DNA of 64,000 nt from contig NZ_JADOBI010000006.1 of assembly GCF_015644585.1 (NCBI RefSeq), positions 248,001-312,000 of the forward strand. The letters run 5' to 3'. The stretch's first letter is position 1. Each line of letters starts with the position of its first letter. The notes under the pieces are model-generated. The model was given only the letters and a program-made list of their open reading frames with translations, made no database searches and was not told the DNA's origin. A program made the translations under genes and the position numbers. Shown here one piece after another: positions 57,422 to 63,322 of this stretch. This DNA comes from Rahnella laticis (GTDB taxonomy: Bacteria; Pseudomonadota; Gammaproteobacteria; Enterobacterales; Enterobacteriaceae).

Positions 57422-58120
57422 ATGCTGGAAGTGAAAGAACTGAATCAGTTTTACGGCGGCAGCCACATTCTGCGCGGCCTGTCCTTTGATGCAAAAATCG
57501 GTGAAGTCACCTGCCTGCTGGGCCGCAACGGCGTGGGCAAGACCACGTTACTGAAATGCCTGATGGGACTGATCCCGGCAAAATCGGGCACCATCAGCTG
57601 GCAGGATCAGGTCATCAATTCCCGCAAACCGCACCAGCGGGTGCAGGCGGGAATAGCCTACGTCCCGCAGGGACGCGAAATTTTTCCGCGCCTGACCGTA
57701 GAAGAAAATCTGCTGATGGGGCTTTCGCGTTTTTCCGGTAGCGCGGCAAAGCAGGTGCCCGATGAAATCTATCATCTGTTCCCGATCCTGCTGGAAATGA
57801 AGCACCGCCGCGGCGGCGATTTGTCCGGCGGTCAGCAACAACAGCTGGCGATTGGCCGCGCGTTAGCCTGCAAACCCGGCCTGCTGATCCTCGACGAGCC
57901 TACCGAGGGCATTCAGCCTTCCGTCATCAAAGAAATCGGCGCGGTAATCAGACAGCTCGCCGCCAAAGGCGACATGGCGATTTTGCTGGTCGAACAATTC
58001 TACGATTTCGCCGCCGAACTCGCCGACAGCTATCTGGTGATGTCGCGCGGCAGCATCGTGAAACGCGGACGCGGTGAAGAGATGGAAGCGGAAAATGTGC
58101 GAGGCATGGTGGCAATTTAA
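57422..58120 (+). CDS. urtE: urea ABC transporter ATPase UrtE
   Basis: A 232-residue LivF-type ATPase. Walker A is GRNGVGKTTLLKC, signature DLSGGQQQQLAIGRAL and Walker B LLILDEPTEGIQP. GAGG lies about ten bases before the ATG. It closes the urtABCDE set; no clear terminator is visible in the 122 bases before the helicase gene. Confidence 0.95.
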   Translation: MLEVKELNQFYGGSHILRGLSFDAKIGEVTCLLGRNGVGKTTLLKCLMGLIPAKSGTISWQDQVINSRKPHQRVQAGIAYVPQGREIFPRLTVEENLLMGLSRFSGSAAKQVPDEIYHLFPILLEMKHRRGGDLSGGQQQQLAIGRALACKPGLLILDEPTEGIQPSVIKEIGAVIRQLAAKGDMAILLVEQFYDFAAELADSYLVMSRGSIVKRGRGEEMEAENVRGMVAI

Positions 58121-58242
58121 ACAATAGTTTTCGATTTTCGTTGATACACACGCCGGTACCTGACACCGTAAAAGCCGATGATTTTTCCGCCAGCGACGGC
58201 TAAGGAACTGACGCGCCAGCCGTTCAAAACAAGGGATTGACG

Positions 58243-60343
58243 ATGAACCGAGAACAGGCTGAACAGCTTCTGAAAACCGCATTATCTGACCCGTCGGCGC
58301 AATTTCGTGACGGCCAGTGGGAAGCTATAAACGCACTGGTCAATGAGCGTAAAAAATTACTGGTTGTTCAGCGTACCGGATGGGGGAAAAGCTCGGTCTA
58401 TTTTATCAGCGCTAAAATATTTCGTGACCGTGGCATGGGGCCGACCATTATTGTCTCTCCGCTGCTGGCGCTGATGCGTAACCAGATTGAGTCGGCACAG
58501 CGGTTGGGTATTGTCGCCCAAACAATGAACTCCACCAATATTGACGACTGGCAGGCCGTCACGGCGCGCATGCTAAATAACGAAATTGACTGCCTGCTGA
58601 TTTCACCTGAACGATTGGCCAATGACCGCTTTATCGAAACGGTGCTGGTTCCCGTCGCCGACCGGATTGGTTTGATAGTGATTGATGAGGCGCACTGTAT
58701 CTCCGACTGGGGGCATGATTTCCGCCCTGATTATCGGCGGATTGTGAGCATTCTGCGCCAGCTTCCTCCGAACACGCCGGTTTTAGGCACCACCGCTACC
58801 GCGAACAATCGTGTCGTCGAAGACATCCAGCACCAGCTGGGCGAAATTCACATCCAGCGCGGAAAATTAACCCGTGAAAGCCTGGCACTCCAGACGATGG
58901 TTTTGCCCGATCAGGCATCACGTCTGGCGTGGCTGGCACAGGTTATTCCCTCGCTGCCCGGCACCGGTATTGTTTACACACTCACCGTTCGCGATGCGGA
59001 ACAGGTCGCACTCTGGCTAACTCAAAACGGAATTATTGCAAAAGCGTACCACGGCAGTGTTGAAGCTGAAGGTTTTGCCAACAGTAACGACTATCGCCAG
59101 CATCTTGAAACTCTCCTTCTGACGAATCAGCTAAAAGTTCTGGTGGCAACGACGGCGCTGGGCATGGGTTATGACAAGCCCGACTTAAGCTTTGTCATTC
59201 ATTATCAGGCGCCAGGCTCAATTGTCGCGTATTACCAGCAGGTAGGCCGTGCCGGGCGTGGCATCAGACATGCGGTTGGCGTGCTGATGTCCGGCGTTGA
59301 AGACCAGAATATTCATGAATTCTTCCGGGATGCCGCATTTCCTTCCGAAGCACAAGTGAATGAAATTTTGGAGGTTCTGACAAACAGCGACGGGCTGTCT
59401 TTGCGCGCAATTGAAGAACAAACCAATCTGCGCCACGGTCAGATCGAAAAGGTACTGAAATTACTGAGCGTGGAAAACCCTGCGCCAGTGATCAAAGTGG
59501 GTTCCCAGTGGCGAAGAACACCGGTGCCTTATGCCATGGATCACGCCCGCATCGCACACCTTACCCGACAGCGGGTACTGGAATGGGATGAAGTCCAGTC
59601 CTACCTGGGCGAACAAGGCTGCAAGATGACTTTCCTCCGCCGGTCACTGGACGATCATGATCCAACGCCTTGCGGTAAATGCGAAATTTGTCTCGGACAG
59701 TCGGTGATTGATATTCAGGTCGATTCAGCGCTGGCACATCAGGCCGCGAGTTTTCTGAGGCAGGCGGAGATGATCATTGATCCCAAAGTGCAGGTTGCTG
59801 CGGACGCATTTACGCAATATGGATTTAAGGGCAACTTGCCGGTTGAACTTCGGGCTCAGGCAGGCAGAGTGCTTTCCCGCTGGGGGGATGCAGGTTGGGG
59901 TAAAATTGCCGCAGAAGGGAAACACCGTGGAGTATTTGGCAATGATCTGGTGGATGCCATGGCGGAGATGATCCATGAACGCTGGCAGCCATACCCCGCG
60001 CCAGCCTGGGTGTGTTGTGTGCCGTCATTGCGTCATCCTGAGCTTGTGGGCAATTTTCGCACGCCGTCTTGCAACGTGCCTCGGATTGCCTTTTAACGAT
60101 GCGATATCAAAAGTTAAGGACAATCAGCCTCAAAAAGGGCAGCAAAACCGCTATCATCAGTGCAGAAATCTCGACGGCGCTTTTGTCGTTCATCCGCAAC
60201 TCCCGGCAGGCCCTGTGCTTCTGGTTGACGACATCATCGACTCGGGATGGACACTGACAGTGATGGCCGCATTATTACAACAAGCAGGAAGTGGCTGCGT
60301 TTATCCGGTCGCTTTAGCTTCTTCTTCGGTAAAAGGTTCATGA
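58243..60343 (+). pseudogene. RecQ-like helicase fused to a ComF-like phosphoribosyltransferase, frameshifted
   Basis: Residues 1-460 are a RecQ-type superfamily 2 helicase: FRDGQ (21-25), Walker A RTGWGKS (44-50), DEAH (148-151), GTTATA, and a motif VI QVGRAGRG. A zinc-binding cluster follows (C477-GKC-EIC with an upstream Cys in EQGCKMTF). Reading on, the frame enters VCCVPSLRHPELVGNF and then stops at 60096 after 13 unrelated residues. One base later in frame (+1, at TTTC 60055-60058) the sequence continues FARRLATCLGLPFNDA and ends with a PRPP-binding motif, VLLVDDIIDSGWT. Joined, the protein is 699 residues. Start ATG 58243 has AGGGA seven bases upstream. The shift may be a mutation, a read error or recoding. 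The end overlaps the dprA-like gene (ATGA). Confidence 0.85.
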
Positions 60344-61602
60344 ATTTATTGCCCGCCGCACAAGCTACGTTACTTCTGACGAGTTATTTCGGTAACGCGA
60401 ATACTGACGGAATAAAGCCTCTCACGAACAGTGAATGGGGGCGTTTTGCTTTGTGGTTGCGAACAAAAGGACTGACTCCTGCCGATTTACTGGCACCTGA
60501 CGTGGCCTCGTTGATTCATGGGTTGCAGGACAAAAGTATCAGCGCTGAACGAATCCTCGCACTGCTGGGACGCGGACACAGTCTGGCTTTAGCCGTAGAA
60601 AAATGGCAGCGGGCTGGCCTGTGGATTGTGACCCGCTCCGACCGCGATTATCCGCACCGCCTGAAATCCCGGTTAAAAAATGATTCGCCGCCGGTGCTTT
60701 TTGTCTGCGGTAACAAGGGCTTGCTCAACTCTGGTGGCCTTGCGGTTGTCGGTTCACGCAATGCAGATAACGAGGATTTGCACTTCTCTCAAGAGTTGGG
60801 CGAAAAAGCAGCCGCTGAGGGGAAATCTGTTGTTTCAGGTGGAGCGCGGGGGGTTGATGAAACGGCGATGCTCGGTGCTATGCATCAGGGCGGCACAGTG
60901 ATTGGTGTGATGGCGGACAGTTTGCTGAAAGCAGCCACCAGCGCGAAATGGCGCAAAGGCCTGATGGAGGGAAATGTTGTCTTAGTTTCACCTTACTATC
61001 CGGAAGCGGTATTTAACGCGGGCAATGCGATGGGCAGAAATAAGTATATTTACTGTCTGGCCGACAGCGCTCTGGTTGTACATTCCGGCCAGAAAGGCGG
61101 AACGCTCAGTGGTGCGGAAGAGAATCTGAAAAAACAGTGGGTACCGCTGTGGGTGAAACCCAGCCGGGACAATCAGTCAGCCAATTCCGATCTGGTCGCA
61201 AAAGGGGGGAGATGGTGTGCGTCTGAGATCCAGGTTTTAGACATTGCAGAATTGTTTGTGCCCGGCAATTTCACTGAAGGAGTCAACGGCGAGCAAGCGG
61301 AGATGTTTGCAGCCTCTGATGAGCCGCAGCCAGAGGCGTTCGAATACCCGCGTCGCCCGCAAGCCCCTCCGGGTCTGTCACTGCGTGAAGAAGTGGCCGT
61401 TTATCCTCAGGCGGATTTTTACCAGATCTTCCTTCGTGAATTAAGCCGGTTAGCCGCAGAGCCTGTCACTGCCGAGTACCTGATTGAAGCAATGTCGCTG
61501 AATAAATCTCAGATGAACGACTGGCTGAAACGCGCTGAAGACGAAGGCTCCGTAAAAAAACTCACAAAACCAATGCGCTATCAGTTCGTGCATTCTCACT
61601 GA
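60340..61602 (+). CDS. DprA-like DNA-processing protein
   Basis: A 420-residue protein of the DprA/Smf Rossmann family. Key segments are VVGSRNADNED (about 133-143), SGGARGVDETAM (about 168-179) and a conserved helix region before it. The C-terminal about 75 residues look like a winged helix (TAEYLIEAMSLNKSQMNDWL). DprA binds single-stranded DNA and loads RecA. I start at MNLLPAAQAT (60340), whose ATG overlaps the stop of the shifted phosphoribosyltransferase frame, showing that the two genes evolved as one translational unit. The middle holds an extra stretch with a WCASEIQVLDIAELF motif. It is not the housekeeping smf locus (no topA/smg neighbours). Confidence 0.85.
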   Translation: MNLLPAAQATLLLTSYFGNANTDGIKPLTNSEWGRFALWLRTKGLTPADLLAPDVASLIHGLQDKSISAERILALLGRGHSLALAVEKWQRAGLWIVTRSDRDYPHRLKSRLKNDSPPVLFVCGNKGLLNSGGLAVVGSRNADNEDLHFSQELGEKAAAEGKSVVSGGARGVDETAMLGAMHQGGTVIGVMADSLLKAATSAKWRKGLMEGNVVLVSPYYPEAVFNAGNAMGRNKYIYCLADSALVVHSGQKGGTLSGAEENLKKQWVPLWVKPSRDNQSANSDLVAKGGRWCASEIQVLDIAELFVPGNFTEGVNGEQAEMFAASDEPQPEAFEYPRRPQAPPGLSLREEVAVYPQADFYQIFLRELSRLAAEPVTAEYLIEAMSLNKSQMNDWLKRAEDEGSVKKLTKPMRYQFVHSH

Positions 61603-61857
61603 TCCTTGTGCGACGGCATCGCTGATACACGTCACACTCCTTCAACAAATTTTTTATCACTGAGCGGCGTGCGGCATCAAATAATTTGCTGCGCGCCGCG
61701 CGCTTATGCGGTGCCTCACAGTTATTTCCTCCGGAAAATCCCTCTGCAAAATATTCGTCGCTGGCCAAAGAATCATTTCGCTGTTCGCTTTTCTGGCAAT
61801 TCATATACTTCCTGCCAGTAGCTCTCTTACCCACATTGGATGTTCAGGAGATTGATG

Positions 61858-62532
61858 ATGACCACACATAAATTTCAGGCCGAACCGTTCCCGCTGATGT
61901 TTGATCCGCAAACCACCGCGCTGGTCATGATCGATATGCAACGCGATTTTGTTGAACCCGGCGGGTTTGGCGAAGCGCTGGGCAACGACGTTTCACGGGT
62001 CCGCACCGCCATCGCGCCGTGCAAAAAAGTGCTGGATGCCGCCCGTGCCCGTGAAATTCTGGTGATTCATACCCGCGAAGGGCATCGCGCCGATCTGAGC
62101 GATTGCCCGCCAGCCAAACTGACGCGCGGCGGCCAGACATTTATTGGCACCGCCGGGCCGATGGGTCGCATTCTGGTGCGCGGCGAAGCGGGCCACGACA
62201 TTATTCCGGAGCTGTATCCGGTGGCGGGCGAACCGGTGATCGACAAACCCGGTAAAGGCGCGTTTTATCAGACAGATCTGCATCTGGTTCTGCAAAACCA
62301 CGGCATCCGCACGCTGATTGTCTGCGGCGTCACCACCGAAGTTTGCGTGACCACCACCGTCCGCGAGGCCAATGACCGCGGCTATGAATGCATTATTCCT
62401 CAGGATTGCGTCGGTTCTTATTTCCCGGAATTCCAGAAATCTGCGCTGGAGATGATCAAAGCGCAGGGCGCGATTTTCGGCTGGATCAGCGATGCTGACG
62501 CCATTGTCGGCGGCCTGAACGCGAAAGCATAA
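61858..62532 (+). CDS. cysteine hydrolase, biuret amidohydrolase-like
   Basis: A 224-residue isochorismatase-superfamily enzyme. The catalytic triad is D26 (MIDMQRDF), K130 (IDKPGKGAF) and C163 (CGVTTEVC). The stretches HTREGHRADLSD, GRILVRGEAGHDIIPELYP and REANDRGYECI are very like biuret hydrolase BiuH, which converts biuret to allophanate and ammonia. With allophanate hydrolase and urea carboxylase nearby, that role is the best guess; a ureidoacrylate or oxamate-type substrate is possible. Start at ATG 61858 has AGGAG seven bases upstream; ATG 61855 is the alternative. The 255 bases before it show no sigma-54 site. Confidence 0.85.
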   Translation: MTTHKFQAEPFPLMFDPQTTALVMIDMQRDFVEPGGFGEALGNDVSRVRTAIAPCKKVLDAARAREILVIHTREGHRADLSDCPPAKLTRGGQTFIGTAGPMGRILVRGEAGHDIIPELYPVAGEPVIDKPGKGAFYQTDLHLVLQNHGIRTLIVCGVTTEVCVTTTVREANDRGYECIIPQDCVGSYFPEFQKSALEMIKAQGAIFGWISDADAIVGGLNAKA

Positions 62533-62533
62533 C

Positions 62534-63322
62534 GTGCAGCTGCCCGTCGTTTCCGTCGGTTATCTGGCGGCCGGAAGACTGGCTCAGCGCCTCAGGGTTC
62601 ACAGCCGCTTCCGGCACGCGATGAACTTCATGGCGGCCGACGGACATCTGCTGACGCTGCTCGATGCCTGCCGTTATCCGAATCTTCCCGACGCCGTCCG
62701 GTTGCAGTTACCGCACGGCTGGGACTGGCGTGAAATGACCGGCGCGATGGACGGGCTGGAAAAGGCCGTAATCTGGCAACCGGAACGGGCTCTTGCGCAG
62801 ACCGGTGAACAGCCTGCACACCACGCCGCGCTGGCAGAAGCACTGCAAAAACAGCCGGTTGAAAGCGCCCTGATGTTACTGCCGGGTGGCGACAGCACTA
62901 AGCGCCAGCCACTGTTATCAGCGCAAAGTTCAGCGCAGGCGCTGACGGCTCAGGTTGCGCAGCTGATCGGTTTTGGCAACGGGCTGACGCCGGACGGCGA
63001 TGATTACCTGCTTGGCTATCTGGCGGCGCTGTGGCGATGGCAGGACACGCCGCTTATCGCCGGACATTTTCGCCTGATGCGCGAAATTATCACCGGGCAG
63101 CTGAACCGCACCAACGACATCAGCGCCCATTATCTCGGGCGGGCGGCACACGGACATTTTTCTGAACCGGTGTGCGACCTGATGATGTTGCTGACGCAAC
63201 AGGCCAGCAACGGTCAGATCCAGACCGCCGCCCGGAACGTGATGCAGTTTGGCGCCAGCTCAGGCGCGGACTGCCTGGCCGGAATGCTGCACGGAATACG
63301 CACGATTCAGACAGCGTTGTAA
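62534..63322 (+). CDS. DUF2877 protein, AllH (YlbF)-like
   Basis: A 262-residue protein of the YlbF/DUF2877 family, seen by GFGNGLTPDGDDYLLGYLAA and FGASSGADCLAGMLHG. In E. coli YlbF works with FdrA and YlbE as oxamate carbamoyltransferase in allantoin fermentation. The start is GTG 62534, immediately after the hydrolase stop, so the two are coupled. FdrA follows, which supports a carbamoyltransferase complex here as well. Confidence 0.82.
   Translation: MQLPVVSVGYLAAGRLAQRLRVHSRFRHAMNFMAADGHLLTLLDACRYPNLPDAVRLQLPHGWDWREMTGAMDGLEKAVIWQPERALAQTGEQPAHHAALAEALQKQPVESALMLLPGGDSTKRQPLLSAQSSAQALTAQVAQLIGFGNGLTPDGDDYLLGYLAALWRWQDTPLIAGHFRLMREIITGQLNRTNDISAHYLGRAAHGHFSEPVCDLMMLLTQQASNGQIQTAARNVMQFGASSGADCLAGMLHGIRTIQTAL

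Follow-up and report, generated by a model that had tools for sequence, protein, structure and literature searches.

A degenerate PsyrTA (RqlHI) toxin-antitoxin locus with an interrupted toxin gene in Rahnella laticis

Results

The helicase-DprA pair belongs to the PsyrTA family

Within a stretch of 64,000 nucleotides from Rahnella laticis (NZ_JADOBI010000006.1, positions 248,001 to 312,000; hereafter the window), two genes of one orientation at 58243-61602 encode a RecQ-like helicase with part of a ComF-like phosphoribosyltransferase (PRTase) and a DprA-like protein. Judged by their profile matches, they are the known toxin-antitoxin system PsyrTA (RqlHI), here a degenerate locus and not a working member of the family. 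By Pfam, the helicase gene carries a DEAD domain (E 1.8e-24), the PRTase sequence matches Pribosyltran (E 1.6e-7) and the gene ending at 61602 matches DNA_processg_A (E 8.1e-42), whilst the helicase scores 250 bits against the RecQ-family model TIGR00614 (cut-off 219.8). These results confirm the three domains proposed in an earlier note on this DNA, which had taken helicase and PRTase to be joined; we find them in separate frames. The 4-base overlap of that note likewise exists between the PRTase frame and the start codon of psyrA (ATG at 60340), and not at the end of the helicase open reading frame (ORF).

Among PADLOC profiles the best match of the first gene is PsyrT (PDLC03928, E 3.9e-267, 886 bits, residues 2-606), with DpdF as runner-up at 305 bits, and that of the second is PsyrA (E 3.6e-170, 564 bits), followed by ShosA at 92 bits; the window toxin differs from PsyrT in not being continuous. 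The window PsyrT is identical at 385 of 605 residues to an E. coli homologue (L158), and K49 and D148, the helicase residues tested in RqlH, have the same numbers in it. PsyrA matches DprA and ShosA structures (E 6.9e-7 for the ShosA structure 9vzo). Thus, a RecQ-like helicase with the Walker A lysine and DEAH box is present, as is a DprA-like gene directly downstream and overlapping or adjacent. A PRTase with the phosphoribosyl pyrophosphate (PRPP) motif in the same polypeptide is not, and it is because the C-terminal half of this domain lies in another frame that we label the locus degenerate. PsyrTA was reportedly described by Sberro et al. in 2013.

Compared with RqlHI as described for extraintestinal E. 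coli (PMC4670107), the window shares both genes, their order, their close spacing and the positions of K49 and D148, but differs in that its PRTase is broken by a frame change. The sites occupied in E. coli are others: L158 lies between gntU and yhgN, and a second copy (L157) on an integrase-bearing island beside tRNA-Thr. ShosTA, which is not known to have a helicase domain, resembles the pair in combining a DprA-like antitoxin with a PRTase toxin, but the ShosA profile gives only 92 bits on the window protein against 564 for PsyrA. Identity with ShosTA, that is a stand-alone PRTase toxin with ShosA as best match of its partner, was rejected on the PADLOC preference for PsyrTA; most of the names that came up in a broad search for ShosTA were unrelated. 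Assignment of the helicase to DpdF of the Dpd system (7-deazapurine DNA modification) was also rejected, at 305 bits against 886 for PsyrT and with transport and metabolic genes at the four flanking positions checked.

The toxin frame is interrupted ahead of the PRPP-binding motif

The window toxin gene is interrupted just before its active site, and the pair probably no longer works. A stop at 60094-60096 closes the helicase frame after 617 residues, 243 bases short of psyrA, and residue 605-606 is the last in it to match PsyrT. What remains of the family match, 95-99 residues with the PRPP-binding motif (first codon at 60227), is found in a second frame, 59975-60343. In the ORF list psyrA appears as a longer frame of 451 residues, from 60247. 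Table 1 gives the features of the locus together with its flanks, where the genes checked were two for ABC-transporter ATPases on the left and those for an isochorismatase-family and an AllH-like protein on the right; the name urtE of the left-flank gene, and a role with urea, are putative.

Table 1. Features of the psyrTA locus and its flanks in the window
Feature	Position	Strand	Remarks
psyrT (rqlH), first frame	58243-60096	+	RecQ-like helicase (Walker A K49, DEAH D148), middle domain, N-terminal half of PRTase domain
psyrT frame-change stretch (lesion)	60040-60060	+	family match switches frame at residue 605-606; relatives have intact copies
Second frame, C-terminal PRTase half with PRPP-binding motif	59975-60343	+	out of frame with helicase; PDLC03928 E 1.1e-35, profile 592-687
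psyrA (rqlI), DprA/SLOG-type antitoxin	60340-61602	+	420 residues, intact; PDLC03927 E 3.6e-170
psyrTA insertion, putatively horizontally acquired	58121-61631		same place in congeners G005 and G008 without it; right edge approximate
Left flank, ABC-transporter ATPase gene, urtE-like (putative name)	57422-58120	+	
Right flank, isochorismatase-family gene	61840-62532	+	
allH-like gene	62534-63322		next after isochorismatase-family gene

A search with PsyrA gave 88 confirmed relatives, from which 80 named loci were kept. In three of these (L038, L044 and L092) psyrT runs off the contig end; among the 77 evaluable relatives it lies in one open frame in 66 and fails to do so in 11 (L021, L037, L042, L050, L051, L052, L059, L071, L085, L086 and L093), none of which has its lesion at the window's position. 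L085 sits close to the end of its contig, and in L086 psyrT is missing altogether. At L059, from Xenorhabdus griffiniae and identical to G190 across the stretches compared, the helicase frame has 437 residues and the PRTase is wholly gone, with an intact overlapping psyrA next to it. The DprA part of psyrA is open, through reference residue 299 at least, in all 80 loci, the C-terminal region being shorter in six (L053, L060, L086, L088, L090 and L093; the rest lies in another frame in L053). In a separate genome (G038; L145 and L155) psyrT and psyrA are seemingly in the same frame with a single TGA between them.

As a check on frame errors, ORFs of at least 120 residues over 60 kb of a sister species (G009) were compared with the window. 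With a threshold of 80% identity, 60 of 66 had a match: 51 as one intact frame (about 55 kb, some of them antisense shadows) and nine partly, the latter by coordinates comprising seven antisense or overlapping shadows, one ORF truncated at the border of the window and one overlap (1967-2623) that we could not assign. By this comparison, frame errors are not a general feature of the assembly.

Insertion site in congeners and wider distribution

Among 14 genomes of the genus psyrA is found only in the window's own, other matches being of 28-32% identity and looking like ordinary DprA. Two congeners have an empty site, with 213 bases (G005) and 216 bases (G008) between the urtE-like and isochorismatase genes; their homology to the window resumes near 61632. 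It is from this empty site that we derive an insert of about 3.5 kb, filled by psyrT and psyrA. The comparison indicates that psyrTA arrived in the window by horizontal transfer between the urtE-like and isochorismatase genes. Base composition is uninformative on a foreign origin, as the G+C of the insert (0.529) falls within the range of 219 upstream windows of the same length (0.482-0.616). A direct repeat with 11 of 12 bases alike (58138-58149 and 61619-61630) flanks the insertion and may be a target duplication or chance.

The sister species G009 has the same 38 bases after the urtE-like gene, followed by two short psyrT pieces matching 58772-58855 (88% identical) and 58973-59086 (96% identical) and then by DNA resembling that downstream of the urtE-like gene in other congeners. 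The simplest reading is that psyrTA entered before the split of G009 and the window species, and that it was later lost from G009 almost entirely. G010, whose urtE-like gene is just as close, has no psyrT remnant, consistent with either a clean loss of the insert or an earlier parting. Most of the gene cluster that follows the urtE-like gene has decayed in another congener (G013, L140), where only pieces match the window.

In the order, psyrTA is sporadic yet, within the sample, always paired: PsyrT (E up to 1e-100) occurs in eight of 394 sampled genomes and PsyrA (E up to 1e-40) in exactly those eight, adjacent each time, the window genome and the Xenorhabdus genome G190 being two of the eight. 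Homologues standing always apart, which the earlier note had named as evidence against its reading, are thus not what the sample holds. That note had also placed the pair away from the housekeeping dprA, and this is borne out by a second DprA match of 31% identity at C20:4002-4505, presumably the housekeeping gene, psyrA itself lying at C20:308247-309599. A phage origin was rejected, as 28 phage records match the helicase part and none covers 80%. On plasmids, 98 records match PsyrA, of which three cover at least 80%, all at less than 60% identity. Some DNA match to the locus occurs in 4487 of 5426 E. coli genomes, one of them with a place covering 80%; from the shorter matches, L157 and L158 were the ones looked into.

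Relatives within type I restriction operons

On an E. coli plasmid (L159) the pair lies within a type I restriction operon, in the order hsdM-hsdS-psyrT-psyrA-hsdR. Searching the 80 named loci with the Hsd proteins of this operon, we found hsdM and hsdS before and hsdR after psyrTA in 14 (L017, L018, L020, L023, L027, L028, L032, L033, L034, L043, L048, L055, L061 and L065; L020 is a Shewanella locus, and the hsdR match of L028 spans only residues 1-577), whilst in 11 of the 80 the DNA was judged too short to tell. The junction of psyrA with hsdR is tight in 13 of the 14, with 12-15 bases in the 12 resolved and L027 placed by position, and hsdR lies 1.8 kb off in L061; the gap between hsdS and psyrT is 13-16 bases in the nine embedded loci where it was measured. 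Toxin lesions occur in none of the 14 embedded loci versus 11 of the 63 others, a difference that is not significant (Fisher p 0.20, or 0.11 with the window included).

Across the 13 tightly spaced loci and L159, the identity of psyrA tracks that of hsdM (rho 0.915) and hsdR (rho 0.914), with none of 2000 permutations as high, whilst hsdS is variable (mean identity 44%) and does not track psyrA. The correlation between PsyrA and PsyrT identities is only 0.17. A mosaic psyrT may contribute to this low value: in L033, L055 and L159, columns of about 240-300 and 360-540 share 39-54% identity with L034 in most blocks and the ends 90-100%, looking as if a segment before the PRTase had been swapped. 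The psyrT of L159 equals that of L055 in every block compared. L055 is from Chelonobacter oris and L159 from an E. coli conjugative plasmid; their PsyrA proteins are identical, PsyrT is 100% identical in blocks, hsdM 100% and hsdR 99%. Such likeness points to recent transfer across families.

The final 57 bases of hsdS in 12 embedded loci were turned into a model, against which we scored the sequence preceding psyrT in the window and in a further 36 named loci. Of these 36, twelve exceeded all 2000 controls (best control 7.9 bits): eight at 15 to 58 bits (L022, L026, L035, L042, L045, L046, L047 and L053), L025 at 54.6 bits with a longer hsdS piece, L061, itself embedded, at 27.3 bits, and marginally L056 (8.8 bits) and L019 (8.4 bits). 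These matches suggest that stand-alone copies with an hsdS tail left restriction operons. Before the window psyrT the model found no match, and none of the four neighbouring genes checked is an hsd gene. In a tree of 84 PsyrA proteins all restriction-embedded copies except L061 fall into one group of 36 (support 95/78); the window PsyrA stands outside it, beside L057, L058 and the E. coli copy L158, with weak support (83/62). An escape of the window copy from a restriction operon was rejected on both the missing hsdS tail and this tree position. It is the relatives that show the link to restriction, and there is no evidence that the window copy was ever embedded.

Discussion

In E. coli, RqlH and RqlI are described as products of one operon that interact physically (Russell and Mulvey 2015, PMC4670107); by that account the laboratory strain K-12 MG1655 has neither gene. 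Such an operon agrees with the view in the earlier note that the domains belong together in a compact two-gene unit. Its suggestion of defence is a reasonable one. According to the same report, RqlH in the absence of RqlI causes SOS induction, filamentation and growth inhibition. Deletion of RqlH residues 509-690 or changes around D663 abolish growth inhibition and SOS induction, with a modest effect on viable counts remaining in the D663-region point variants; the PRTase by itself is not sufficient for toxicity. RqlI co-precipitates with RqlH and not with a PRTase-less version, RqlH 1-509 not being bound, and RqlI 1-320 suffices for the antitoxin effect, for which the C-terminal helix-turn-helix region is dispensable. 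The authors speculate that the target of the PRTase is a nucleotide in DNA. Where the earlier note saw no effector or toxin, the PRTase is thus the published toxic domain and the DprA-like protein its antitoxin.

In intact members, PsyrT is a RecQ-like helicase whose PRTase domain harms the cell when PsyrA is missing, and PsyrA binds PsyrT only if it has that domain, both as published for E. coli; release of the toxin may be triggered by phage or DNA damage. In the window, the frame breaks ahead of the PRPP-binding part of the PRTase and would leave a helicase fragment, which we predict to be non-toxic because the PRTase is the toxic part in E. coli (PMC4670107). PsyrA would have little left to restrain, and the pair would give no abortive defence. 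A broken toxin, an open antitoxin and near-total loss in a sister species fit the loss of a costly addiction-like module. We therefore favour, with a probability of roughly 0.78, a PsyrTA/RqlHI toxin-antitoxin locus, a candidate phage-defence pair, that was acquired horizontally and is now decaying.

A number of points weigh against this interpretation. The helicase mutants K49A and D148A of RqlH are reported to lose viability with no rescue by RqlI (PMC4670107), and the window fragment (residues 1-605) is longer than the RqlH 1-509 tested in E. coli. Seven of the 11 relatives with a broken psyrT are metagenome-assembled, and the several frame changes in L042 may stem from faulty sequencing. 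The excess of toxin over antitoxin lesions before the C-terminal region (11 versus 0, sign test p 0.001) is biased, the loci having been chosen via PsyrA, and carries little weight. As to defence, a DprA and PRTase pair is reported to protect against T7 and lambda (PMC9122126) and PsyrTA is counted as a defence system (PMC10121019, citing Millman et al. 2022), but overexpressed PsyrTA of E. coli NILS69 gave a growth defect and, in the assay described, no detectable protection (PMC12409345). With such mixed evidence, defence is a candidate role also in intact copies.

The window sequence is moreover a single assembly (23 contigs) without reads, so that the one frame change at the psyrT lesion could be a sequencing or assembly error in an intact, working PsyrTA, and the remaining psyrT is well kept, with 82% identity to L025 of Mangrovibacter on either side of the lesion. 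We consider such an error unlikely, as no clearly real gene is broken in the roughly 55 kb of ORFs matched to G009 (antisense ones included) and the system was lost in that sister species too. An equally improbable alternative, which overlaps with decay, is that the pair was detoxified but kept, the helicase fragment and PsyrA being retained for another role. L059 of Xenorhabdus griffiniae, with its helicase frame and intact PsyrA, offers a parallel, and the ATPase and helicase activities of M. smegmatis RqlH are independent of the PRTase (cited in PMC4670107). However, RqlI did not bind RqlH 1-509, as described above, and the G009 copy is decayed; no close intact relative was found for a test of selection. 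The probabilities we attach to these alternatives overlap and do not sum to one.

Much less probable is a built-in limit on dose, in which ribosomal frameshifting would produce some PsyrT of full length. Apart from the frame change the two frames are well conserved, but nothing direct speaks for recoding and none of the 77 evaluable relatives has a frame change at this place, 66 having psyrT in one frame and the others having lesions elsewhere. Least probable of all is a competence-like DNA-uptake module, one of the two options in the earlier note, although the helicase, PRTase and DprA domains do resemble ComFA, ComFC and DprA of naturally competent bacteria, a comparison with comF that Russell and Mulvey drew themselves (PMC4670107). 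The ComF profile reaches 23 bits, below its cut-off of 233.55. The PsyrTA family, already described as RqlHI in 2015, differs in having a RecQ-type helicase fused to the PRTase and published toxin-antitoxin behaviour. None of the 25 NCBIfam families matching the window helicase is named ComFA (RecQ comes first and the rest are helicases or nucleic-acid enzymes), the presence of a ComFA model in that library being unchecked. The pair is also sporadic in the order, and no transformation was detected in the E. coli carrying it, as far as that report describes (PMC4670107).

The occurrence of psyrTA in restriction operons of relatives supports a defence role for the family. In PrrC-EcoprrI the anticodon nuclease gene prrC lies between hsdS and hsdR, the slot that psyrTA takes in this clade of relatives, but not in the window. 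We raise, tentatively and as the less probable side of the question, that in a gammaproteobacterial clade psyrTA may be a guard built into a single family of type I restriction-modification systems, passed on together with hsdM and hsdR whilst hsdS is exchanged, its PRTase toxin being released when a phage disables the restriction enzyme, and that some stand-alone copies would be escapees with an hsdS tail. This touches the window copy only as a relative. Payne et al. are said to have treated embedded defences in a preprint of 2024. Our literature search, with preprints outside its scope, returned no paper whose title or abstract places psyrTA in a type I restriction operon, and this result may be newer than the locus itself.

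Annotated as plain RecQ and DprA, or under 'recombination' or 'transformation', such genes conceal a PsyrTA system. The window locus is ordinary as a system and of some use as a toxin-dead allele. Here the toxic half of PsyrT has been broken naturally and the antitoxin left open, with an empty site and fragments in congeners alongside. Such an allele makes the published claim that toxicity resides in the PRTase testable without designed mutants, and the relatives raise the question whether psyrTA may be a built-in second line of type I restriction.

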